Shown one piece after another: positions 5,731-18,727 of a stretch of DNA of 64,000 nucleotides; positions within the stretch are counted from its first letter, which is position 1; each line of letters begins with the position of its first letter. Where the stretch lies: assembly GCF_900163665.1 (NCBI RefSeq), contig NZ_FUIA01000026.1:62001-126000 (forward strand), given 5' to 3'. The position numbers were made by a program, and so were the translations under genes. The stretch is from Frigoribacterium sp. JB110. GTDB taxonomy: Bacteria > Actinomycetota > Actinomycetes > Actinomycetales > Microbacteriaceae. The notes under the pieces were generated by a model that saw nothing but the letters and a program-made list of their open reading frames with translations, was not told the DNA's origin and did not search any database.

Positions 5731-8700
5731 GTGAGCACACTTCATCGTCCGGACGAACCGATCGTTCTCCCTGCGCCGGCGGCCCCGGCCAGACGCGGTG
5801 CGATTCCGATCGTCGCGGCGTTCGTGCCCATGGTGGGCGCAGTGGCGATGTGGCTGCTGACCGGCTATGTCATGATGCTCTGCTTCGCGGCGATCGGCCC
5901 CCTGATGGTGCTGGCCTCTCTGGTCGACGGCGCCCGCAACCGGCGCAAGGAGAGGCGCAGGGCGGCGCGGGAGCTCACCGCGGCGTGCGCCGCCGCCAGA
6001 GAGGAGCTGTCCGAGCGTCACAGCGAGGAACGGTCTCAGCTCGACCGGTTGAGGCCGAGCACTGGCAGATTGGCTGAGGCGCGCACGCTGTGGCGGCACG
6101 GGCCGATCGAGGTTGTCCTGGGTCTCGGCAGGGTCCGCAGCGACATCCGTGTGACAGGGGGCGAAGGCGCCGAGGCAGAGCAGCTGCGGCGGGATGCCGC
6201 CTGGGTCACCCTGGCGCCGGTGACGGTTCCGCTTCGTGAAGCCGGCGGCGTGTGCGTGCAGGGCCCTCCTGCCGCGGCCACGGCGGTTGCGCGGGGGCTG
6301 CTGATGCAGCTCTGCCTGCGCGCGGCGCCGAGCGAGCTCGTCGTCTCCCATCTGCTTCCGGGCGACGAGGCCGCCTTGGAGCAGCTGCCGCACCTCGGCA
6401 CGGCGGCAGGGCGGAGCACGCAGGGGCGGGAGGGTCGTGAGCCGATCAGAGTCGTTGCTGTCGGTCTCGTGCACGAGGATCCGGCGGGAGCGGAGACGGC
6501 CACGACGATCGCATCCGCTCGGGGGAGAACCGCTTCTCTCGAGTCGGAGGGGCGTCCGGCCGCTGCGGAGCCGCCTGGCACAAGGGACGCGCGACGTGCG
6601 GCCGCCATCGCAGAGGCCGATTTCGTCATCGCTGTGACGGAGAGCGGCGCCGACGCGCCTGCGGCGTGCGGCGTCATTCTGGAGTTGGAACCCGGTGCGG
6701 CGCTGCGCGCCCGGCGCCTCGATGACACGGCACTCGACCCCGAGGGCGAGCCGCTGCGAGTCGAAGCGCTCGCCCGTGCGCAGGCCGAGCGGCTGGCATC
6801 TGTGCTCGCCGGTCGGTCGGATTCGAGCGGAGGCGAGGTGCCTCTTCCCGAGGTGCGTCTGGGCGCACTTCTCGAATCGGCCTCCCCGCATGAGCGGTCG
6901 GCGGAGGCCGCGGCGGCGGGCGGCAGAGGAGACCGGCCGCATGGGCCGGGGCTGGACGCACCGATAGGCAGGGGAGCGGACGGTACGACGAGCGTCGACC
7001 TCGTGCACGACGGGCCTCACGCCGTCGTCGTCGGCATCACCGGCAGCGGTAAGAGCGAACTGCTCACCACGTGGATCGCCTCGCTCGCTTCACGCTATGA
7101 CAGCGAGCGTGTGGCCTTCCTGCTGGCCGACTTCAAGGGAGGAACGGCGTTCACCTCGCTGCTCGCGCTGCCGCACGTGACGGGCATGATCACCGACCTC
7201 GACGGCGCGGGCTCGCGGCGCGCGGTCGAGAGTCTGCGCGCGGAACTGCGCAGGCGGGAGAGCGTGCTCGCCGCAGCGGGAGCGACCGACATCGGCGACG
7301 AACGCGTCGACATGCCCAGGCTGGTGATCGTGGTGGACGAATTCGCCGCGCTGCTGCAGGACCACGGCGATCTGCACCAGGTGTTCACAGACGTCGCGGC
7401 ACGCGGACGGGCGCTCGGCATGCACCTCGTGCTCGGCACCCAACGCTCATCGGGCGTGCTCCGCGACGCACTGCTGGCGAACTGTCCTCTGCGCATCAGC
7501 CTGCGCGTGGCGGAGAGGGCCGACAGCTCGGCCGTCGTGGGCGTCGACGACGCCGCATACCTGCCAGGGGACGTGGCCTCCCGCGGCCTGGCGCTCGTGC
7601 GCCGCGGCGGCGACGTCGCACCAGAGCGCACTCGCATCGCGCGCACGGAGGCAGAGCTGCTCGCACGGCTCGCCTCGGCAGATGCGCAGCGTGCGCAGGG
7701 TGCCGGGGCGCCGGGAGAACCGGGGCACGCGCCGTGGCTGCCGCCGCTGCCGCGCGAGCTGACGCTGGGCGAGCTGGGTGCACCCGAGCACGGAGGGGGA
7801 GCGGTGCTGCTCGGCCTCGCCGATGAGCCGGATGAGCAGCGCCAGCCCGTCGTGACGATGCACCGTGGCGGCGGTCGCGGGATGGCCGTCATCGGCGGGT
7901 CGGCGTCAGGCAAGACCAACGTCGTGCGGCTCGTCGCGGGGCAGGTGCCGGGAGCCGTGGTCGTGCCAGGTGATCTCGAGGGCGCGTGGGACGCGGTCGA
8001 GCGCGCGGCCGACGATCCTCCGCCCCTCATCGCGATCGACGACCTCGATTCGCTGCTCGGCCGGTTCCCTGCCGAGTACGCGCACGAGTTCGCCGCGCGG
8101 GCGGAGTCTCTCGTGCGCGAGGCAGGGGCACGCGGTACGACGGTCGTTGTGGCGGCCTCGCGGGTCACGGGGCCGGTCGAGCGCGTGATCGCCGGCCTCG
8201 GAAGACGGGCGCTGCTGCGGCTGCCGTCCCGCGCCGATCATGTGCAGGCGGGAGGGAACGGCGGCGACTTCGATCCGCGCCGCCCGCCGGGAAGGGCGGT
8301 GATGGACGAACGAGAAGTGCAGTTCGCAGGTGCCGCTGCCCAGGACGAAGCTGTGCCTGACAGGAGAGCGGCGGCGGGGAGAACGACGGAGGCTGGGGCA
8401 GTCGGCACGCGTGCCGAGCGCAGGCGGGCGCTGCGCGGAGAGTCGTTGCGCCCCGCCGGTACCGCGGGGCGGCGCCCCGCCCCGACGCTCGCACATCGTT
8501 CCGCGGGAGCGGCGGCGCTGTGGCGGCCGGCGGTCGCGGTCGCGGTCGCGGCGATCGTGACGAACGGTGCGGTCGCCCGCGCGTCGCTGCTGGCAGAGGC
8601 ATGGGGGAGAGCGGTGCGGGTCGTCGCCCTGGATGCGCTCGAATCCGGAGCGTCGATCGACGACCTCGCGGCAGGAGCCGAGCACCTGGTCGCCGTCGGC

Positions 8701-8904
8701 GACGGTGAGAGCTGGCTGCGACACGGCGCGCTGCTGCGCCGCATCCGGTCATCCGGCGACGTGCTCGTGGCCGCCGAATGCAGGAGCGAACTCCGCTCGA
8801 TCGCAGGAGAGCGATCGCTGCCGCCTTACGCCGAGTCGCGCGCCGGTCGCGCATGGCTGGTCTCGTCCTCGGCCCCACCGCTTCGGGTGCTCCTCCCGGT
8901 GTGA
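5731..8904 (+). CDS. Orphan EccC/EssC-like FtsK-SpoIIIE family membrane ATPase
   Basis: Large ATPase (1057 residues) built like the motor of type VII secretion systems. Two membrane segments lie near residues 23-62 and are followed by a basic, coiled stretch (RRKERRR onward). The first ATPase domain is complete: Walker A GITGSGKSE near 435, DFKGGTAF, Walker B VIVVDEF with Asp near 536, and LGTQRSSGVLRDALLANCPLRISLRV. A second domain has Walker A GGSASGKT (722-729) and Walker B LIAIDD. A third region up to the C-terminus keeps the fold-like pattern but has lost its P-loop. No WXG100 substrate gene, EccB, EccD, EccE or FHA domain was found nearby. Alternative roles in DNA or peptide transport cannot be excluded. 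Confidence 0.88.
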   Translation: MSTLHRPDEPIVLPAPAAPARRGAIPIVAAFVPMVGAVAMWLLTGYVMMLCFAAIGPLMVLASLVDGARNRRKERRRAARELTAACAAAREELSERHSEERSQLDRLRPSTGRLAEARTLWRHGPIEVVLGLGRVRSDIRVTGGEGAEAEQLRRDAAWVTLAPVTVPLREAGGVCVQGPPAAATAVARGLLMQLCLRAAPSELVVSHLLPGDEAALEQLPHLGTAAGRSTQGREGREPIRVVAVGLVHEDPAGAETATTIASARGRTASLESEGRPAAAEPPGTRDARRAAAIAEADFVIAVTESGADAPAACGVILELEPGAALRARRLDDTALDPEGEPLRVEALARAQAERLASVLAGRSDSSGGEVPLPEVRLGALLESASPHERSAEAAAAGGRGDRPHGPGLDAPIGRGADGTTSVDLVHDGPHAVVVGITGSGKSELLTTWIASLASRYDSERVAFLLADFKGGTAFTSLLALPHVTGMITDLDGAGSRRAVESLRAELRRRESVLAAAGATDIGDERVDMPRLVIVVDEFAALLQDHGDLHQVFTDVAARGRALGMHLVLGTQRSSGVLRDALLANCPLRISLRVAERADSSAVVGVDDAAYLPGDVASRGLALVRRGGDVAPERTRIARTEAELLARLASADAQRAQGAGAPGEPGHAPWLPPLPRELTLGELGAPEHGGGAVLLGLADEPDEQRQPVVTMHRGGGRGMAVIGGSASGKTNVVRLVAGQVPGAVVVPGDLEGAWDAVERAADDPPPLIAIDDLDSLLGRFPAEYAHEFAARAESLVREAGARGTTVVVAASRVTGPVERVIAGLGRRALLRLPSRADHVQAGGNGGDFDPRRPPGRAVMDEREVQFAGAAAQDEAVPDRRAAAGRTTEAGAVGTRAERRRALRGESLRPAGTAGRRPAPTLAHRSAGAAALWRPAVAVAVAAIVTNGAVARASLLAEAWGRAVRVVALDALESGASIDDLAAGAEHLVAVGDGESWLRHGALLRRIRSSGDVLVAAECRSELRSIAGERSLPPYAESRAGRAWLVSSSAPPLRVLLPV

Positions 8905-8922
8905 GGACGGCCCCGCGCAGTC

Positions 8923-9918
8923 TCAGACTGTCGGACGGATGCGGCCGACCTCGTCATCGCCGCCGCGGACGGCATAGAGCGGGTGCGCGGCGAGGAAGTC
9001 GGACACCGCGTCGGCGGGCAGCGCGCCCGTCTTCGCCAGCAGCGACAGTGCGACGGCCGAACCCGCGCGGCGGGAGCCGTCGAGCACCTTGAGGGCGACC
9101 GTGGTGCCGTTCGGAGCGACCATCACCTGCACACCCTCCGCACCGAACTTCGAGAACACGCCGAACTGCTCGATCGCCGCAGTGTCGGGGCGTCCGGCGC
9201 CCTCGACGACCCACGGATTCTCCCGCACAGCCCGGATGAGGGCACCGGAGACGCGGTGCAGTGCAAACGGCGACGTCTCGCTCGACGTGCCGATCCGCTG
9301 CATGCCGCGGGCCAGCGACGACAACGCGACGGCGTGCACGGGCGCTCCGCACCCGTCGACGGCCGTCGCAGCGATCTTCGCGCCGCCGCACAGACGTTCG
9401 ACGGCCTCTCGAATGTGCTGCTGCAACGGGTGGGTGGGGGAGAGATACGAATTCGTGTCCCAGCCGTTCACTGCGCATGCGGCGAGCATCGCCGCATGCT
9501 TTCCCGAGCAGGTCATCCGCACACGCGACATCGGCGCGCGATCGCGGATCATCTCCTGCCTGGTCGATGAATCATCAGGCAGAGCGGGAGGGCAGCCGAG
9601 ATGATCTTCGGTGAGACCCGCGTCGAGCAGCATGCTGCGCACGAGCTCGACGTGGCGGTCGGTGCCCGCATGGCTCGCAGCCGAGACCGCCAAGCGCTCG
9701 CCCTCGAACGCCGCTCCTGCCGTCGCGCACGCGATCGCCTGGAACGGCTTCATCGCCGATCGCGGAAGCACGACGGCTTCTGGGTCGCCCAGCGCCAGCG
9801 CGGCGTCACCATCAGGCGTGAGCACGATCGCGGCACCTGCGTGCCGCGATTCGACGAAACCGCCCCTGTCGGCGGTGGCGAGTTCGACCGAGGAGTCCAC
9901 TGAGAGCGTTCCGGGCAT
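8923..9918 (-). CDS. L-asparaginase II family protein (PF06089 type)
   Basis: Predicted asparaginase of the thermolabile Rhizobium etli type, hydrolysing L-asparagine to aspartate and ammonia in the cytoplasm. The 331-residue product has the family features: ESRHAGAAIVL near the start, the catalytic-type SAMKPFQA segment, CSGKHAAMLAACA, DGCGAPVHAVAL, and the late PWVVEGAGRPDTA. The start at 9918 fits family length and is served by a TATCCT -10 box seven bases upstream, consistent with a leaderless mRNA. A longer start at 9966 would run across the divergent OsmC start. It is convergent with the EccC-like gene (18-base gap) and divergent from OsmC. Confidence 0.87.
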   Translation of the reverse strand: MPGTLSVDSSVELATADRGGFVESRHAGAAIVLTPDGDAALALGDPEAVVLPRSAMKPFQAIACATAGAAFEGERLAVSAASHAGTDRHVELVRSMLLDAGLTEDHLGCPPALPDDSSTRQEMIRDRAPMSRVRMTCSGKHAAMLAACAVNGWDTNSYLSPTHPLQQHIREAVERLCGGAKIAATAVDGCGAPVHAVALSSLARGMQRIGTSSETSPFALHRVSGALIRAVRENPWVVEGAGRPDTAAIEQFGVFSKFGAEGVQVMVAPNGTTVALKVLDGSRRAGSAVALSLLAKTGALPADAVSDFLAAHPLYAVRGGDDEVGRIRPTV

Positions 9919-9925
9919 GCCCTCC

Positions 9926-9931
9926 AGGATA
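9926..9931 (-). promoter_or_regulatory. -10 box of the asparaginase-like gene (leaderless type)
   Basis: TATCCT on the minus strand, seven bases before the ATG at 9918. The start codon would fall at the transcription start, so translation would begin without a leader. Confidence 0.55.
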
Positions 9932-9952
9932 TGCCTCGCGCTCCGTACGCCA

Positions 9953-9958
9953 TACTCT
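9953..9958 (+). promoter_or_regulatory. -10 box of the OsmC gene (leaderless type)
   Basis: TACTCT ends six bases before the ATG at 9965. It lies back to back with the asparaginase promoter in a 46-base divergent gap, too short to hold two leadered transcripts. Confidence 0.55.
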
Positions 9959-9964
9959 GGTGGC

Positions 9965-10435
9965 ATGATCCAGCGCCACAGCTACGCACTCACCGCGACG
10001 TGGACGGGCAACCGCGGCAGCGGTACGAGCGGCACTCGCGACTACGACCGCAGCGTCACGCTGCGCGTGGACGGCAAGCCGGACCTGCTGGGGTCGGCCG
10101 ACAAGCCGTTCTTCGGCGACCCGGAGCGCTGGAACCCCGAAGACCTGCTCATCGCGGCGCTCGCGCAGTGCCACCTGCTGTCGTACCTGCGCGCCTGCGT
10201 GCTGCGCGGCGTCGTGGTCACCGGGTACACCGACAGCGCGACGGGCGAGATCGAGCTGTCGGGCGACGGCGGCCGCTTCATCGGCGTCACGCTGCGCCCG
10301 AGCGTCACGGTAGCCGACGCGGGGATGCGCGAGGCGGCTGCAGAAGCGCATGCGGATGCGCACGCGTGGTGCTTCATCGCCAACTCCGTCAGCTTTCCCG
10401 TCGGCTACGAGCCCATCGTCGAGGTCGCCGCATAG
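9965..10435 (+). CDS. OsmC/Ohr family protein
   Basis: OsmC-fold thiol peroxidase-like protein of 156 residues, a family that reduces organic hydroperoxides using two cysteines. The first cysteine is in the central helix (LIAALAQCHLLSYLRAC) and the second in AWCFIANSVSFPV, the expected positions for the OsmC pair. The N-terminal strand HSYALTATWTGNRGSGT and the NPEDLLIAALA motif fit the OsmC subgroup more than Ohr. No signal peptide is seen. Start at 9965 is supported by the TACTCT box six bases upstream and by homology. Peroxide substrate is inferred from the family only. Confidence 0.9.
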   Translation: MIQRHSYALTATWTGNRGSGTSGTRDYDRSVTLRVDGKPDLLGSADKPFFGDPERWNPEDLLIAALAQCHLLSYLRACVLRGVVVTGYTDSATGEIELSGDGGRFIGVTLRPSVTVADAGMREAAAEAHADAHAWCFIANSVSFPVGYEPIVEVAA

Positions 10436-10441
10436 GGCACA

Positions 10442-10465
10442 CGCACCCCGCGGATCCAGGGTGCG
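10442..10465. terminator. Hairpin between convergent osmC-like and plsC-like genes
   Basis: CGCACCC (10442-10448) pairs with GGGTGCG (10459-10465) across a 10-base loop, 7 bases after the OsmC stop and 18 before the acyltransferase stop. The position fits a two-way terminator, though the stem is short and no T-run follows. Confidence 0.4.
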
Positions 10466-10482
10466 CCGGTGGGTGCGGCCGC

Positions 10483-11271
10483 TCAGCGCCTCTCGTGCGG
10501 CAGAACGCGCTTGAGCTTCTGCACGGGTCCCTGAGCAGGCAGCTCGTTGTACGTTCCGGCCAGCTCCTGGCCTGAGAGCTCGTGGATGGCCGCCATGATC
10601 TCGTCTGTGGCGTGGCGGCGCGCCTTGCCGCTGGTCGCCGGTCCGTGCGTGGAGACGTCGATCGGGGCGCCGAACCTCACGACGACCCGCTCGGACAGCT
10701 TCGGCATCTTCGCGCCGACGGGCATCACTCTGTCCGTGCCGACGAGCCCGATCGGTACGACAGGGGCGCCCGTCTGCAGAGCCAGGAAGGCGATGCCGGT
10801 GCGCCCCTTGTACAGCCGGCCGTCGCGTGATCGGGTGCCCTCAGGGTGCAGTGCGACCGCGGCACCGGTCTCGAGGATCCGGCGCTGCTGCTCCAACGCG
10901 TCGAGAGCGGCCTGTCCTGCGCCGCGATCAACCGGCACGGCGCCGACCGACGTGAAGAAGGTGCGGGAGAGCCATCCGGTCAGACCCTTGCCGGTGAAGT
11001 AGTCGGACTTCGCCAGGAAGTGCACGGCCCGGGGAGCAGCGGCGATCGGGATGGCGAACGAGTCGATGACCGAGAGATGGTTGCTCGCGAGGATCACGGC
11101 GCCGTGCTTCGGCAGATTCTCTTTGCCCTCGACGCGCGGCCGATAGATCATCCGCGCCAGCGGTGCGATGACGGTGCGGCCGAAGGTGTACAGCCAGCTC
11201 GGGCGATGCGGGGCGCTTTCGGGCAGACCCGTGGGATCGTCGCCTTCTTCGTGCGAGCCGGAGGACGTCAT
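10483..11271 (-). CDS. plsC: 1-acyl-sn-glycerol-3-phosphate acyltransferase family protein
   Basis: PlsC-family acyltransferase, adding an acyl chain to lysophosphatidic acid to give phosphatidic acid at the inner membrane. In 262 residues the four family blocks are clear: the catalytic NHLSVID (NHx4D), then VDRGAG, HPEGTRSRDGRLYKGRTG, and the VVPIGL block. An amphipathic N-terminal stretch (WLYTFGRTVIAPLARMIY) could bind the membrane; no classic signal peptide is present. Start 11271 has both a TAAGCT -10 box six bases upstream and a GGAGG, so it could work leaderless or with a very short leader. The exact acyl acceptor is not certain; related enzymes act on other lysolipids. Confidence 0.88.
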   Translation of the reverse strand: MTSSGSHEEGDDPTGLPESAPHRPSWLYTFGRTVIAPLARMIYRPRVEGKENLPKHGAVILASNHLSVIDSFAIPIAAAPRAVHFLAKSDYFTGKGLTGWLSRTFFTSVGAVPVDRGAGQAALDALEQQRRILETGAAVALHPEGTRSRDGRLYKGRTGIAFLALQTGAPVVPIGLVGTDRVMPVGAKMPKLSERVVVRFGAPIDVSTHGPATSGKARRHATDEIMAAIHELSGQELAGTYNELPAQGPVQKLKRVLPHERR

Positions 11272-11277
11272 CCCTCC

Positions 11278-11283
11278 AGCTTA
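11278..11283 (-). promoter_or_regulatory. -10 box of the plsC-like gene
   Basis: TAAGCT on the minus strand, six bases before the ATG at 11271; the six intervening bases read GGAGGG. Confidence 0.45.
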
Positions 11284-11410
11284 ATGCGGGAGTATGCGGG
11301 CAACGGCATGCGTGACGCCCGTGGTCATCCGTACGTCGTGACGCCCGATGTCAGCGGGCGCATGGATTCGTGCGCAAAGATGGGGTGTCCCCCAACGAAC
11401 GAGGTTCTCC

Positions 11411-12385
11411 GTGCGCATTCGATCGATTGCACTGATGTCCACCGCGGCGGTCGCCGCCCTCGCCCTCGCCGGCTGCTCCGGCGACGCTGATCCCGACACC
11501 GACGGCACAAGCGACAATGCGCTCTGCGCCGCTGCCGGCGAAAGCGGCAGCGCCGTCGATTCGCTCGACGTCTCGGGCGAGGCAGGAGGGGACGTACCGG
11601 AGAGCCTCGACCTCGCCGATCCGCTCGACCCTGCCGACTTCGAGCGCGCGGTCGTGACAGAGGGTGACGGCACACAGCTCGCGGAGGGCGACTTCTTCTC
11701 CTACGCGATCACGGCGTACGACGCGGAGACGGGCGAGCAGGTCGGCCAGGCCGGTTATGAGGACGGCGAGGTGCAGCCGCAGCAGATCTCGGCGTCGACG
11801 ATGCTCGGCCAGGTCTTCGGATGTGCGACTGTCGGTACGCGCATCGCGACCGTGTATCCGGCGTCCACCGATGAGTCCGGCCAGGAGACGCCAGCCCAGG
11901 TTCAGGTCGTCGACGTGCTCAGCACGCCGGAGAAAGCGGCATGGGGCGAGGACCAGGAGCCCGTGGACGGCATGCCCGCCGTCACCCTCGCCGACGACGG
12001 CGCGCCGACCATCGAGATCCCGGACGGCATGGAGATCCCGGAGACCACCAAGGTCGAGGCCACGAAGGTCGGCGACGGCGCGGAGATCGCCGACGGTGAC
12101 ACCGCCTACGTGCAGTACAAGGGCATCAAGGCGAGCGACGGTGAGGAGTTCGACTCCAGCTGGAGCGGCGGCATGCTCGCGGCGTTCCCCACTACGGGCG
12201 TCGTCGAGGGCTTCCAGAAGGCGCTCGTCGGACAGACGGTCGGCTCCCAGGTGGTGGCCGTGATCCCCAAGGAGGAGGGCTACCACCAGGAGGGCGGCGA
12301 GAGCCACGAGCTCTACGACGAGGACCTGGTCTTCGTCGTCGACATCGTCGACGTGTTCCACCCGGCGACGCCAGCAGCCGAATAG
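11411..12385 (+). CDS. FKBP-type peptidyl-prolyl isomerase lipoprotein
   Basis: Secreted, lipid-anchored prolyl isomerase of 324 residues. The N-terminus has a hydrophobic signal segment ending in the lipobox LALAGC, so Cys becomes the lipidated first residue on the outer face of the membrane. The C-terminal third is a recognisable FKBP domain (GDTAYVQYKGIKASDGEEFDSSW, VVEGFQKALVGQTVGSQVVAVIP). The middle part (GDFFSYAITAYDAETGEQV, IGTR-like region) looks like a second, degenerate FKBP fold. The GTG at 11411 gives the correct signal peptide. dxr begins six bases after the stop, so the two are probably cotranscribed. Confidence 0.88.
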   Translation: MRIRSIALMSTAAVAALALAGCSGDADPDTDGTSDNALCAAAGESGSAVDSLDVSGEAGGDVPESLDLADPLDPADFERAVVTEGDGTQLAEGDFFSYAITAYDAETGEQVGQAGYEDGEVQPQQISASTMLGQVFGCATVGTRIATVYPASTDESGQETPAQVQVVDVLSTPEKAAWGEDQEPVDGMPAVTLADDGAPTIEIPDGMEIPETTKVEATKVGDGAEIADGDTAYVQYKGIKASDGEEFDSSWSGGMLAAFPTTGVVEGFQKALVGQTVGSQVVAVIPKEEGYHQEGGESHELYDEDLVFVVDIVDVFHPATPAAE

Positions 12386-12391
12386 GCCACC

Positions 12392-13471
12392 ATGCGGCGC
12401 ATCCTGATCCTCGGATCCACCGGCTCGATCGGCACCCAGGCGCTCGAGGTCATCCGGGACAACCCCGGCCTATTCGAGGTCGCGGGCCTCGCCGCTGGAC
12501 GCAACGCCGCGATGCTGCGCGAGCAGGCGGAGCGGTTCGGCGTCGCGCACACCGCGCTCGGCGCGGACGATGCCGCTCGGCTGGTGCGGGAGGTCGACGC
12601 CGACGTGGTGCTCAACGGCATCACGGGCTCGGTGGGGCTCGGCCCGACGCTGGCGGCGCTCGAGGCGGGCCGCACGCTGGCGCTGGCGAACAAGGAGTCG
12701 CTGATCGTGGGCGGCCCGCTCGTGAAGCAGGCGGCGGCTGCCGGTCAGATCGTCCCCGTCGACAGCGAGCACTCCGCGATCGCTCAGGCGCTGCGGGCAG
12801 GGGCACCGGATGAGGTGCGCCGGCTCGTCGTGACGGCGTCCGGCGGGCCGTTCCGCGGGCGGAGCCGCGACGAGCTCACCTCCGTCACCCCGGCCGAGGC
12901 GCTGAACCACCCGACGTGGGACATGGGTCGCGTGGTCACGACGAACTCCGCGACTCTGGTGAACAAGGGTCTCGAAGTGATCGAGGCGCACCTGCTGTTC
13001 GACGTGCCGCTGGCGAGGATCGACGTCGCCGTGCATCCGCAGTCGATCGTGCACTCGATGGTCGAATTCGTCGACGGATCCACCATCGCTCAGGCCTCGC
13101 CTCCCGACATGCGCCTGCCGATCGCGCTCGGCATGGCGTGGCCGGATCGTGTGCCAGGCGTGGGAGCGCCCATCGACTGGACGACGGCGGCGAGCTGGAC
13201 CTTCGAGCCCCTCGACGAAGCGGCCTTCCCCGCCGTGGCGCTTGCGAAGCGCGTCGGCGAGGCCGGCGCGACGCACCCCGCGGTGTTCAACGCGGCCAAC
13301 GAGCAGGCGGTCGACGCGTTCCATGACGGGCGGCTGAGCTTCCTGGGCATCGTCGACACCGTCGCGCGCGTCGTCGAGGCCCATTCCGCGCCCGCCGAAC
13401 TGACACTCGACACGCTCGCCGCTGCAGAGTCCTGGGCCCGCGCAGAAGCCGATCGCGCCATCGCCGGCTGA
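12392..13471 (+). CDS. dxr: 1-deoxy-D-xylulose 5-phosphate reductoisomerase
   Basis: Second enzyme of the MEP isoprenoid pathway: NADPH-dependent conversion of DXP to methylerythritol 4-phosphate in the cytosol. The 359-residue product begins with the NADPH-binding loop [14 protein letters not shown]. It carries [10 protein letters not shown] and the metal and substrate residues in [20 protein letters not shown] and [25 protein letters not shown]. It lies six bases after the FKBP gene. The pathway partner ispG is about 5 kb downstream; the MurE-like, protease and trpEG genes lie between them. Confidence 0.97.
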
Positions 13472-13491
13472 CCCACCGGCACCCAGAACCT

Positions 13492-13507
13492 CAGCGCTCC
13501 GGCGCTG
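13492..13507 (+). terminator. Small hairpin after dxr
   Basis: CAGCGC (13492-13497) pairs with GCGCTG (13502-13507) over a four-base loop, 21 bases after the dxr stop. It is GC-rich but lacks a T-run, so termination is only a possibility. Confidence 0.3.
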
Positions 13508-13529
13508 CGCTGCCTCTGATCCCGCAACA

Positions 13530-13543
13530 GGGTACTAGTACCC
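13530..13543. promoter_or_regulatory. Perfect 14-base palindrome upstream of the MurE-family gene
   Basis: GGGTACTAGTACCC is a perfect palindrome 82 bases before the favoured GTG of the Mur ligase. It is AT-centred within GC-rich DNA and resembles a dimeric repressor site. No regulator for it is recognisable. Confidence 0.35.
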
Positions 13544-13624
13544 CTTCCGGTGCTCAGGCGCGACCAGAGGCGCGCTCGTGCGCACTCAGCGGTTCCCTCG
13601 CCTGGGCGTGCGACGATAGACGGC

Positions 13625-15235
13625 GTGATCGTCACGCCCCGAATCCGCCGCACGCCGCCCGTGATGCTGCGCCCCTCACAGCCAGGCCCGATCCGACTGT
13701 CCGAGGTCGCCGCCCGTATCGGCGGCACCGCGTCGGGAGCGGACGCAGAGGTGACGGGAGTCTCCGTCTCATCGAGCGACCTGGCTCCCGGCGACCTGTT
13801 CGTGGGCATCAGGGGCCTGAACCGCCACGGCGCCGAGTTCGCCGCCGCCGCCGCGGAGAACGGGGCGACCGCTGTCCTCACCGACGCCGCCGGCGCGGAC
13901 ATCGCGCGTGGGGCCGGTCTGCCGATCATCGTGGTCGATGACCCCCGCGGCGCGCTCGGCGACGCGTCCATGGCGGTGTACCGCACGTCGCCTGACGACG
14001 ACATCCCGCTGCTGCTGGGAACGACGGGCACCAACGGCAAGACCAGCACAACGCATCTGCTCGAAGGGATGCTGACCCAGCTCGGCGTCGTGGCAGGCGC
14101 ATCGACTTCCGCTGAGCGCGTGGTGGCAGGCGAGCGCGTCGTCGCGGGGCTCACCAGCCCGGAGGCCAGCGAGTTCCACGCCATGATCGCCAGAATGCGC
14201 GAGCGCGACGTCGAAGCGTTCGCGGTCGAGGTCAGCGCCCAGGCCGTCACCCGTCGCCGAGTCGAAGGCGTGATGTGGGACGTGATGGGGTTCACCAACC
14301 TCACCCACGAGCACTTCGACGACTACGGCGACATGGAGACGTACTACCAGGCGAAGGCGCCGCTGTTCACCTCGGCGCGCAGCCGCCGCGCCGTCGTCTC
14401 GCTCGACTCCGCGCTGGGTGTCCGCATCGCGAGCGAGGCGGACATCCCCGTCACGACGATCGCCGCACGCGGCATCGCCGATGACGAGGCATTCGAACGC
14501 GCCGACTGGACAGTCGAGGTCACCTTCGAGGCGCAGAGCGGCACCGGCTTCCAGCTCACCGGGCCCGACGGCAGGACCCTGGCGACCACCGTGCCCGTGA
14601 TCGGCGCGCACATGGCGGCGAACGCGGGGCTCGGCATCGTGATGATGTACGAGGCGGGCTACGACTGGGATCGCATCATCGAGGCGCTCGCCGGCGAGAT
14701 CAGGGCATGGGTGCCCGGCCGAACGCAGCTCGTGTCCGGTCCGGAGGGGCCGGCCGTGTACGTCGACTTCGGACACACCCCTGACGCGTTCGAGAAGACG
14801 CTCGCCGCGGTGCGGCGCGTCACACCGGGCCGAGTGCTGATGCTGTTCGGCGCCGACGGCGACCGGGACACCACCAAGCGGTACGACATGTCGCGCACTG
14901 CGGTCGAGGGAAGTGACGTGACGGTCGTCACCGACCATCATCCGCGCTTCGAGAACGCCCAGTCCATCCGGACCACACTGATGGAAGCGGCGCACGAGGT
15001 CGACCGCGACCACGAGGTGCACGAGGTGTCGCCGCCCGAGGCCGCGATCGTCAAGGCCGTCTCGCTGGTCGGCGCCGGCGACGCGATCCTGTGGGCGGGG
15101 CCCGGCCACCAGAACTACCGCGACATCGCGGGCACGCAGTGGGCGTACTCGGCCCGCGAGCTCTCCCGACGCGCGCTCGTCGAGGCCGGATGGCCTGCCG
15201 GCGAGCGCACCTGGACCAACCCGTACGGAGACTGA
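13625..15235 (+). CDS. MurE-family Mur ligase (substrate uncertain)
   Basis: ATP-dependent amide ligase of the MurE group, about 536 residues. All three domains are visible: an N-terminal MurNAc-peptide-binding part (RLSEVAARIGG, VSSSDLAPGDLFVGIRG), a central ATPase with TGTNGKTSTTH, and a C-terminal domain (LFGADGDRDTTKR, TDHHPRFENAQSI, LWAGPGHQNY). The usual MurE amino-acid motif DNPR is HHPR here, so the added amino acid cannot be read off. The gene is far from any division/cell-wall cluster, and a second MurE probably exists elsewhere (inference). Starts at GTG 13625, GTG 13661 or ATG 13664 are all possible; GACGAT seven bases before 13625 favours the first. The protease gene follows after four bases. 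Confidence 0.82.
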   Translation: MIVTPRIRRTPPVMLRPSQPGPIRLSEVAARIGGTASGADAEVTGVSVSSSDLAPGDLFVGIRGLNRHGAEFAAAAAENGATAVLTDAAGADIARGAGLPIIVVDDPRGALGDASMAVYRTSPDDDIPLLLGTTGTNGKTSTTHLLEGMLTQLGVVAGASTSAERVVAGERVVAGLTSPEASEFHAMIARMRERDVEAFAVEVSAQAVTRRRVEGVMWDVMGFTNLTHEHFDDYGDMETYYQAKAPLFTSARSRRAVVSLDSALGVRIASEADIPVTTIAARGIADDEAFERADWTVEVTFEAQSGTGFQLTGPDGRTLATTVPVIGAHMAANAGLGIVMMYEAGYDWDRIIEALAGEIRAWVPGRTQLVSGPEGPAVYVDFGHTPDAFEKTLAAVRRVTPGRVLMLFGADGDRDTTKRYDMSRTAVEGSDVTVVTDHHPRFENAQSIRTTLMEAAHEVDRDHEVHEVSPPEAAIVKAVSLVGAGDAILWAGPGHQNYRDIAGTQWAYSARELSRRALVEAGWPAGERTWTNPYGD

Positions 15236-16633: not shown

Positions 16634-18559
16634 TTACGCGAGGGCGTGGGCGACGAGGCGGCGGAGGGTGCTCATGCCGTCTCGGGAGAGGATCGACTCG
16701 AGGTGGCCCTGGATGCTGGCGAACTTCGGGCCGCGCAGGGCGTAGACGTCGCCGGTGGCAGGGTCTGCGGCGATCTCCACGGAGTCGATGCGGGTCGTGC
16801 CGGGCTCCACGCGTGCGGTGAACGTGTTGTAGAAGCCGATCGAGGCGCGCTCACCGAAGACGTCGACGGTCTTCTGCACGCCCTGGTGCGGCTGCGCCAT
16901 GGGGGCCAGATCGATGCTGAGGAGATCGGCGAGCACTTGGTGGCTCAGGCACACCGACACCAGAGGCTTGCCCGCGTCGATGCGACGGGCGACCACGTCG
17001 CGCATCCTGGCGATGCGCGGATTCGCCTCGTCGCGTGGGTCGCCGGGGCCCGGGCCGGTGACGAGCAGTTCGGCGTCGTCGATCTCGGTGTCCGTCACGT
17101 GTGACCAGTGCACGATGCGCGCATCGAGGCCGAGATGGCCCAACTGGTGGGCGAGCATCGTGGTGAATCGGTCCTCGGCGTCGACGACGATCGCACTGCG
17201 GCCGGCGAATGGGCCGGCGTCGTCGCTCTGCTCCTCGAGCCAGAACGGCGCGAGGCGAGCGTTGCGCGAGGCGAGCAGCTCTGCGATGCCCGGATCGTCT
17301 CCGAGCCGCTTCGGTGTCGGCGCAGGGCCGGTCGCGGGCTGGTCGGGGTCCGCGACCCGCGTCGCGCGCGGCACGGCACCGATCGCCCCGAGCACTCCCG
17401 CAGCCTTGCCGTGCGTCTCGCTGACCTCACCGTAGGGATCGGAATGGCGCACGAGCGTGGCGCCGACCGGTACGCGGAGCCTGCCTCCGTCGAGGTGGGC
17501 CGTTCTGATCAGGATGGGCGCGTCGAGGCTGTGGCCGCCGGAGACGTCAGGGGTGAACAGCGCTGCCACGCCGGAGTAGTACCCGCGAGGAGTCGTCTCG
17601 TGACGCCGGATGACGGTGCACGCGTTCTGCATCGGAGAGCCGGTGACCGTCGGGGCGAACATGGTCTCGCGCAGGATGCCGCGGGGGTCCATTCGGCTCG
17701 TGCCTCGCAGCATGTACTCGGTGTGGGTGAGCCGTGACATCTCCTTCAGGTGCGGTCCCGTGATCCGGCCGCCGTCCGAGCACACGGCGCTCATCATCTT
17801 GAGTTCCTCGTCGACGACCATGAAGAGCTCTTCGGTCTCCTTGGTGTCGGTGAGGAAGGCGGAGAGCGTCTCGACGGTCGCGCCGCCGTCCGGATGGCGG
17901 AAGGTGCCTGAGATCGGGTTCATCGTCACTGTCGACGAGCCGTCGCCGTGCGAATCCGCGACGACGTGAGCCTCGGGGCTCGCGCCGACCAGGATCCTCT
18001 CGCCCGCGACGATCGCGAAGGTCCAGTAGGCGCCGCGCTCATGCTCCAGCAGTGCGCGGAACCAGGTGAGCATCGCCGTGCGCTCGTCCGCATCGATCTG
18101 CGCGACGTAGTCGCGGCGGATCACGAAGTTGGCGCCCTCTCCTCGGCCGATCTCGTCAGAGATCACCCGGCGCACGATCGACGCGTAATCCTCATCCGCA
18201 ACGTCGAAGCCGGCGCCCGTCAGTGGGACGGTCGCGCTCGGCAGAGCGGAGAGCACGTCGCCGACCGGCACGCGGGTGTGCTCGTCGACGACGAGGCAGC
18301 GAAGGGGAGTGTCCTCTGGCTCTGCTTCGAAGCCGCGCTCGCGCACCTGCTGGTACGGCACCAGCGCGAGCACCTCGCGAGCGGCGCCCGCCGCATCGGT
18401 GAGCGGGATGTCGGCGAGGAGATCGACGTCGACGGTGTCGCCGGTGAGCACCTCGACGTGCGTCGCCGGACCGTCGCCGCCGCGCGCGATCAGCGCGAAC
18501 GAGGCGTCAGGGTCAGCGGCAAGGCGCAGAATCGTCTCGGCGGTGTCGTCAGCAGCCAT
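16634..18559 (-). CDS. trpEG: Fused anthranilate synthase TrpEG (PhzE-like architecture)
   Basis: Single-chain synthase making anthranilate from chorismate and glutamine. Residues 1 to about 400 are the chorismate-binding part (MNPISGTFRHPDGG, TKETEELFMVVDEELKMM, SPMQNACTVIRRHE, RGYYSGVAALF, RTAHLDGGRLRVPVGATLV). From about 425 on lies a glutamine amidotransferase domain (VTGPGPGDPRDE, nucleophile in SVCLSHQ, and HLES for the His/Glu pair). The arrangement matches PhzE and the fused synthases of other actinobacteria. A leader peptide with two adjacent Trp codons and a terminator hairpin upstream points to tryptophan synthesis rather than phenazines. The LLES-type Trp feedback motif of ordinary TrpE is not visible. 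A strong start is the ATG at 18559. Confidence 0.88.
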   Translation of the reverse strand: MAADDTAETILRLAADPDASFALIARGGDGPATHVEVLTGDTVDVDLLADIPLTDAAGAAREVLALVPYQQVRERGFEAEPEDTPLRCLVVDEHTRVPVGDVLSALPSATVPLTGAGFDVADEDYASIVRRVISDEIGRGEGANFVIRRDYVAQIDADERTAMLTWFRALLEHERGAYWTFAIVAGERILVGASPEAHVVADSHGDGSSTVTMNPISGTFRHPDGGATVETLSAFLTDTKETEELFMVVDEELKMMSAVCSDGGRITGPHLKEMSRLTHTEYMLRGTSRMDPRGILRETMFAPTVTGSPMQNACTVIRRHETTPRGYYSGVAALFTPDVSGGHSLDAPILIRTAHLDGGRLRVPVGATLVRHSDPYGEVSETHGKAAGVLGAIGAVPRATRVADPDQPATGPAPTPKRLGDDPGIAELLASRNARLAPFWLEEQSDDAGPFAGRSAIVVDAEDRFTTMLAHQLGHLGLDARIVHWSHVTDTEIDDAELLVTGPGPGDPRDEANPRIARMRDVVARRIDAGKPLVSVCLSHQVLADLLSIDLAPMAQPHQGVQKTVDVFGERASIGFYNTFTARVEPGTTRIDSVEIAADPATGDVYALRGPKFASIQGHLESILSRDGMSTLRRLVAHALA

Positions 18560-18604: not shown

Positions 18605-18629
18605 ACGACCGCCGGAGCGGGGCGGTCGT
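18605..18629 (-). terminator. Attenuator terminator hairpin of trpEG
   Basis: A nine-base stem (18605-18613 with 18621-18629, ACGACCGCC/GGCGGTCGT) with a seven-base loop lies between the leader peptide stop and trpEG. A GGCGG-containing segment just after the leader stop can pair with its 5' arm, giving a plausible antiterminator. The trailing T-run is weak. Confidence 0.6.
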
Positions 18630-18655
18630 GTTCGTGCTCGCGAAGTCGGCCGCCG

Positions 18656-18679
18656 TCAGGCGAGCCACCACTGGTTCAT
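18656..18679 (-). CDS. trpL: Trp leader peptide MNQWWLA
   Basis: Eight codons on the minus strand read Met-Asn-Gln-Trp-Trp-Leu-Ala-stop, 96 bases before the trpEG start. Two adjacent Trp codons in a tiny reading frame, followed by a hairpin and then a tryptophan gene, is the classic arrangement for ribosome-mediated attenuation. Streptomyces and Corynebacterium have similar leaders. When Trp-tRNA is scarce the ribosome would stall on the TGG pair and allow read-through. The peptide itself probably has no further role. Confidence 0.72.
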   Translation of the reverse strand: MNQWWLA

Positions 18680-18699
18680 CGTCGCGTGCACGCTGTCAA

Positions 18700-18727
18700 C
18701 CTATACGGGTGAACCGTCGCCTGCCAA
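18700..18727 (-). promoter_or_regulatory. Promoter of the trpL-trpEG unit
   Basis: On the minus strand, TTGGCA (18722-18727) and TATAGG (18700-18705) are spaced by 16 bases. Transcription would start about 15 bases before the leader peptide ATG, leaving a short leader that includes the peptide and both hairpins. Confidence 0.5.

Follow-up and report, generated by a model that had tools for sequence, protein, structure and literature searches.

We analysed a 64,000-nt stretch of DNA from Frigoribacterium sp. JB110 (the window), in which a short ORF with two Trp codons lies ahead of a PhzE-family gene, referred to here as trpEG. Along the minus strand, a −35-like TTGGCA (18727–18722), TATAGGTT, the two-Trp ORF, a 9-bp hairpin and trpEG follow one another (Table 1). 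The hairpin (18629–18605) is a perfect 9-bp stem, ACGACCGCC-[CCGCTCC]-GGCGGTCGT, placed 26 nt past the stop codon of the leader and about 46 nt ahead of trpEG. Both flanking genes, ispG upstream and an rseP-like gene downstream (129.9 bits, cut-off 147.55), are on the plus strand, and trpEG therefore stands alone; neither an isochorismatase gene (PhzD) nor other phenazine genes adjoin it.

The trpEG protein contains fused Chorismate_bind and GATase domains, which is the PhzE-like architecture of the TrpEG class. Its best PDB match was 3r74 (residues 20–640, E 1.8e-160), which we take to be PhzE; TrpE matches were far worse. The protein scored 78.8 bits with the canonical TrpE model PRK13571 (cut-off 693) and far under the cut-offs of all TrpE models listed. 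It aligned to the TrpE models only from the C-terminal chorismate-binding part of these models. The usual Trp-binding region of TrpE is N-terminal, and hence was not recognisable here, in agreement with a preliminary description of the locus that had seen no TrpE feedback motif and had suggested attenuation as perhaps the main control; on these family alignments, that suggestion may hold. Among the proteins fetched, the closest was from Microbacterium halophytorum (83% identity).

Table 1. Features of the trpEG leader and gene in the window.
Feature	Position	Strand	Basis or remark
−35-like TTGGCA	18722..18727	minus	Direct reading of the window
−10 box TAGGTT	18698..18703	minus	6 nt ahead of the GTG start; TANNNT spacing kept across leaders
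Leader ORF GTG..TGA, MHATMNQWWLA	18656..18691	minus	Probable start, picked by conserved −10 spacing
ATG form of the leader ORF (MNQWWLA)	18656-18679	minus	Codons ATG-AAC-CAG-TGG-TGG-CTC-GCC-TGA
Putative Trp sensor, adjacent codons UGG UGG	18665..18670	minus	WW or WWW leaders in relatives
Region 1 core CGCC, partner of region 2	18659..18662	minus	Quartet and covariation tests
Region 2 GGCGGCCG, 1 base past the leader stop	18647..18654	minus	Quartet and 2:3 tests
Region 3 ACGACCGCC, terminator 5' arm; antiterminator partner of region 2 with one mismatch here	18621..18629	minus	
Region 4 GGCGGTCGT, terminator 3' arm; the tail after it has few U in this species	18605..18613	minus	
trpEG, PhzE-family fused anthranilate synthase candidate	16634..18559	minus	Chorismate_bind and GATase
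trpEG codon 348 (Pro)	17516-17518	minus	

Conservation, start and specificity of the leader

Of 580 confirmed relatives, the best 80 were kept for comparison, and 78 of them had upstream sequence; L029 and L037 lay too close to a contig end and were left out of the leader count. A leader with adjacent Trp codons (WW) was found in 77 of the 78; for Yinghuangia L070, the exception, a WWW leader came into view in L104, which extends further upstream. When the same stretches were read on the reverse strand, 11 loci had a small ORF with at least two W, a control looser than the leader criterion because W was counted anywhere in the ORF. Thus, as expected of a ribosome-mediated attenuator, a small ORF with two Trp codons side by side lies ahead of trpEG and is conserved in its relatives, which bears out the earlier claim of adjacent Trp codons at this place. 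A family sample, selected by the tool, contained 10 other genomes with a PhzE-like gene, 9 of them with the leader, and the genus genomes G205 and G212 have it too. The exception, G044, is a 1.4-Mb family member with a PhzE-like gene and no canonical TrpE; no WW leader was found at its locus (L102) within the stretch examined. In alignment A1 the tandem Trp codons served as the anchor and are therefore invariant by construction.

A TANNNT box ended 6–8 nt before the leader start in 86 of 89 leaders, compared with 1.6 expected from letter shuffling with 5–8 nt allowed; the window start was entered in this count by hand as GTG 18691. For the three misses (L033, L064 and L078), an alternative in-frame start with a TANNNT box was seen by eye. 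The pattern used for Shine–Dalgarno (SD)-like motifs matched 0 of the 89 leaders. In the window, the end of TAGGTT is 6 nt from GTG 18691 and 18 nt from the ATG, from which the preliminary description had read the seven-residue peptide MNQWWLA. We rejected the ATG on this distance; as judged by the conserved spacing, the true start is very probably GTG 18691, giving an 11-residue peptide, MHATMNQWWLA. This length is common to the leaders of many relatives, such as MLANLTWWPAS. The conserved spacing between the −10 box and the start suggests that the leader transcript is leaderless. The previously proposed −10 sequence, TATAGG with a 16-nt spacer, overlaps TAGGTT, but a simple sigma-70 scan reported no promoter at the leader; a simple terminator scan was likewise silent there.

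A covariance model of the leader matched the window site in its own genome with E 7.5e-8. The next match had E 0.135, and we rejected the idea that the genome holds another Trp leader like it. We then considered 296 actinomycete genomes, some of which had also given sequences to the model, and obtained 89 matches in 76 of them (E 1e-4 or better). The downstream genes were PhzE-like trpEG (56), TrpE (11), trpS (20) and trpD (2); all 89 matches preceded Trp genes, 87 as judged by tblastn and the two trpD genes by family model. Family models were run on 7 of the 89 (2 of the 11 TrpE, which were TrpE-clade3, 3 of the 20 trpS and both trpD), and the rest were assigned by tblastn. The trpD cases come from two actinomycete genomes (L132 and L133). 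In Rfam 15, no family came up to its threshold for the window or for six relatives, and a further Rfam scan gave a single sub-threshold CRISPR match on the opposite strand (E 0.8).

RNA pairing and the terminator hairpin

We searched the window and 77 further loci (n = 78) for an exact quartet in which regions 1 to 4 read X, X', X, X', with the Trp and stop codons as anchors, and took expectations from dinucleotide shuffles. A quartet allowing the 1:2, 2:3 and 3:4 pairings was found at k = 4 in 72 of the 78 loci (8.18 expected), at k = 5 in 56 (0.14 expected) and at k = 6 in 2 (0.02 expected). The window itself passed only at k = 4 and failed at k = 5, with one mismatch in 2:3.

Covariation was analysed in 48 leaders, a non-redundant subset of the 89. 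The 1:2 and 3:4 helices had 88.4% standard pairs (84.3% in shuffles), double changes at 9 pairs (3.5 in shuffles) and a covariation score of 0.162 (0.096 in shuffles), and for each of these values 0 of 500 shuffles was as high. Every slid version of the two helices scored below the true register. One outer terminator pair was C-G in 19 leaders of the 48 but A-U in 18, and another was A-U in 38 but G-C in 8. These results indicated that the stems covary, as the comparison with relatives called for in the preliminary description was meant to reveal, along with a conserved peptide.

For the 2:3 pairing, 91.3% of cells were paired (89.1% in shuffles) and 9 cells had double changes (2.7 in shuffles). 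The number of pair types was below that of the shuffles (499 of 500 shuffles were at least as high), and the covariation score was exceeded by two slid versions; covariation of 2:3 is therefore weak. At a terminator column with A or G, all 8 rows with G had C at the partner base in region 2. Mutually exclusive 2:3 and 3:4 pairings were thus indicated by the quartet test and the pair counts, with weak covariation on the 2:3 side.

Folding of the RNA, proposed earlier as a check, was unremarkable for the lone window sequence (z −1.44; 19 of 200 shuffles folded as well or better), and single-sequence folding by itself would not have proved an attenuator. The calculated energies were −16.8 kcal/mol for 3:4 and −9.4 kcal/mol for 2:3, or −13.8 kcal/mol for 2:3 with an inner hairpin. 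A stronger 3:4 is what a default terminator requires. The computed fold kept the 3:4 hairpin even when region 2 was left free, and antitermination would therefore have to be kinetic.

The tail 3' of the stem has 2 T in 8 in the window and 1 T in its nearest relative, L001, compared with a median of 5 in 8 over the 85 of 89 leaders that were scored, window included; the tail pattern missed L057, L073, L095 and L098. At least 3 T in 8 were found in 80 of the 85 leaders and 2 or fewer in 5. Thus, the nine-base stem that the preliminary description had read as a terminator is there in full, but it is followed by a poor U-tract in this species. With this tail and a silent terminator scan, efficient termination in this species is only putative.

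Source of anthranilate and position within the PhzE family

The Frigoribacterium genome, with an estimated completeness of 100%, yielded no canonical trpE. Three chorismate-binding proteins were identified: a PabB-like protein, an isochorismate synthase and the trpEG product. The PabB-like protein was best matched by pabB, narrowly missing the cut-off (323.2 versus 328.4 bits), and its gene adjoins a TrpG/PabA-type amidotransferase gene; this pair could in principle also make anthranilate. The genes trpD, trpB, trpC and trpA are all present. The his-trp cluster lacks trpE here, and G205 and G068 have trpE at the same place. In this cluster (L105 9600–10100, G000:C15), an ORF that looks HisI-like by eye runs directly into the gene for the Trp-associated membrane protein (PF09534), its stop codon overlapping the start of that gene.

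In the family sample of 100 genomes, 90 had a TrpE match at E 1e-120 or better, of which 75 exceeded the curated cut-off, and 11 had a PhzE-like gene, including G070 with a partial match. The PhzE-like gene occurred in 5 of the 10 genomes without TrpE versus 6 of the 90 with TrpE (Fisher p 0.0012, not corrected for relatedness). G026, G032, G037, G078 and G090 had neither gene; completeness is 98% or more for three of these, G032 (0.9 Mb), G037 and G090, which may accordingly be auxotrophs, unless something was missed. In the genus sample, the PhzE-like gene was found in 98 of 99 genomes, the miss being G159 (88% complete, 650 contigs), and TrpE in one, G205, which scored under the curated cut-off and has both genes. 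Canonical TrpE thus appears to have been displaced by the PhzE-like gene in the genus. Since no TrpE was found and trpD, trpB, trpC and trpA are present, the assignment of trpEG to tryptophan synthesis, already made in the preliminary description, is strongly supported, with anthranilate as the presumed product.

G212 carries a second PhzE-family gene (L107, G212:C1, ~6975–14200; 44% identical). It adjoins DAHP synthase and isochorismatase genes and has no leader, and the cluster also contains a large AMP-ligase-like gene, as judged by eye. This locus is probably an ADIC-type natural-product cluster.

We assembled 17 cluster PhzEs: the G212 gene, 15 of the 16 plasmid regions opened (33 records matched) and one from Kutzneria. 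An isochorismatase, annotated or confirmed by Pfam, lies beside 15 of the 17; at L208 it was seen only as an unscanned ORF, and at L216 it was not listed, with PhzA/B and PhzF present. A strict scan of 400 nt upstream found a leader at 0 of the 17. L212, which has no isochorismatase, and L102 were held out of the comparison. In a tree of 91 proteins, built by a quick method and with several long branches, one branch parted 72 leader-type from the 17 cluster-type rows (SH-aLRT 100); the functions attached to the two types are putative, taken from the neighbouring genes.

The only alignment column that fully separated the two types was residue 348, just ahead of the ILIRTA motif. Of 118 leader-type proteins, 117 had Pro at this position and one (L073) had Ser, whereas all 17 cluster-type proteins had Ala. 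The 118 comprised the window, 90 strict-scan leaders, 25 fetched model matches, and L029 and L037, whose upstream sequence is off the contig; near-duplicates were included. The held-out L212 has Ala, and L102, with neither TrpE nor a leader, has Pro. The column is Ala in 3r74 and Cys in the anthranilate synthase 1i7q, so Pro348 is not needed for anthranilate synthase activity in general. Because a single branch separates the two types, residue 348 may be only a mark of lineage.

Interpretation and comparison with known systems

We consider it very likely that the leader is a ribosome-mediated transcription attenuator of the stand-alone trpEG gene, the product of which would make anthranilate for tryptophan. 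The leader, the −10 spacing, the quartet, the 1:2 and 3:4 covariation, the specificity for Trp genes and the lack of another TrpE come from sequence comparison; the transcription start point, stalling, termination and the enzyme product are what we infer. The attenuation layout named in the preliminary description held up on conservation of the WW leader, covariation of the terminator, the quartet and the position of all model matches before Trp genes.

In the proposed mechanism, the 5' end of the transcript would lie at or beside GTG 18691, and a ribosome would initiate on this leaderless end. When charged tRNA-Trp is scarce, it would stall on UGG UGG, covering region 1 and leaving region 2 free to pair with region 3 as an antiterminator, and RNA polymerase would continue into trpEG. 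When Trp is plentiful, the ribosome at UGA would cover region 2, 3:4 would form and transcription would stop. Without translation, 1:2 would form and 3:4 would remain as the default terminator.

The T-poor tails of the window and L001, set against the median of the scored leaders, favour a variant in which the leader senses Trp but the 3:4 hairpin of this U-poor lineage needs help, termination being brought about by Rho/NusG or by ribosome coupling. The hairpin is perfect, and most of the scored leaders have at least 3 T in 8; moreover, poly-U terminators are described for Corynebacterium and Streptomyces in PMC1262725. The distance of about 46 nt to the trpEG start codon means that this codon is not hidden by the hairpin. 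We regard the variant as unlikely, though it is the alternative of most weight. Mere chance, a small two-W ORF next to a GC-rich hairpin, could appeal to the silent scans and the modest fold z-score, but conservation and Trp-gene specificity across relatives make it scarcely credible.

That the nearest solved structure is PhzE would fit a true PhzE, an ADIC synthase for a phenazine-like product with an incidental leader. This is very improbable: the search of the genome brought up no canonical TrpE, a single well-supported branch parts leader-type from cluster-type proteins, and the locus has rseP-like and ispG genes as neighbours and no isochorismatase. We rejected a phenazine function because trpEG is the only TrpEG-type candidate, because of its clade position and because no PhzD lies alongside. 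A search for PHZA_PHZB was silent for its control as well and therefore gives no evidence of absence.

With ribosome-mediated attenuation of trpEG as the preferred reading, a broader proposal can be put forward only as a speculation that we think is unlikely. The leader would be a functional label in the PhzE family, with Trp-attenuated members as anthranilate synthases and phenazine-cluster members as ADIC synthases; residue 348 would help to decide pyruvate elimination; and one modular leaderless Trp-leader RNA, without an Rfam 15 match, would serve trpEG, TrpE-clade3, trpS and trpD across actinomycetes. As stated in a 2018 article (PMC5958127), protein sequences do not reveal why PhzE lacks the lyase step and stops at ADIC. 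Presence of the leader together with Pro348 is offered here as a sequence test within the family.

A PhzE-shaped enzyme is indicated to have displaced canonical TrpE across the genus. A name like 'PhzE-like' or 'anthranilate synthase family protein' is therefore uninformative on function, and a search for canonical TrpE would misclassify such bacteria as auxotrophs. Attenuation relying on leaderless initiation is suggested to be widespread, and one may ask what keeps ribosome and polymerase in step when there is no 5' UTR. The attenuator is real and functional-looking, and its type of switch is already known, Streptomyces trpE attenuators having been published. Its interest comes from a leader start that is now corrected and probably leaderless, from the displacement of TrpE, and from a mark that may part anthranilate from ADIC synthases. 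Among the titles listed in searches of the open literature, none concerned a Microbacterium trpEG attenuator; Microbacteriaceae may already be covered in a study of 2015 on Trp attenuation in Actinobacteria, cited in PMC4833913.

Stalling follows the same logic in E. coli trpL, which differs in having a 5' UTR and an SD sequence. A trpEG attenuator in Streptomyces venezuelae was reportedly described by Lin et al. in 1998, as cited in PMC4833913. The S. venezuelae TrpEG resembles PhzE and is assigned as an anthranilate synthase in PMC3111181, where the phzE primers of that study are said not to have matched its gene; the enzyme is the subject of Ashenafi et al. (2008, 2015), cited in PMC3111181 and PMC5958127. 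Like it, the window gene is fused, very similar to PhzE and preceded by a Trp attenuator, and the S. venezuelae enzyme is reported as an anthranilate and not an ADIC synthase. Unlike it, the window gene is the only TrpE/TrpEG-type anthranilate synthase candidate found and lies between rseP-like and ispG.

Classical Trp attenuators were predicted in Corynebacterium and Streptomyces by Seliverstov et al. (PMC1262725), who cite experiments in C. glutamicum and S. venezuelae. The window shares tandem UGG codons, a classical attenuator and a conserved complementary triple with the Corynebacterium leaders, but those precede a trp operon, trpB1EDGC in C. diphtheriae. A further parallel, described in PMC8079986, is trpL1-trpE of S. 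lividans, where RNA-seq revealed a leaderless leader. It has tandem Trp codons, a monocistronic gene and two hairpins, as in the window, and a U-rich stretch is reported there; its peptide, by contrast, has 18 residues with WWW. Its start comes from RNA-seq, whereas the start point in the window and its relatives is predicted, as judged by the −10 spacing kept in 86 of 89 leaders.
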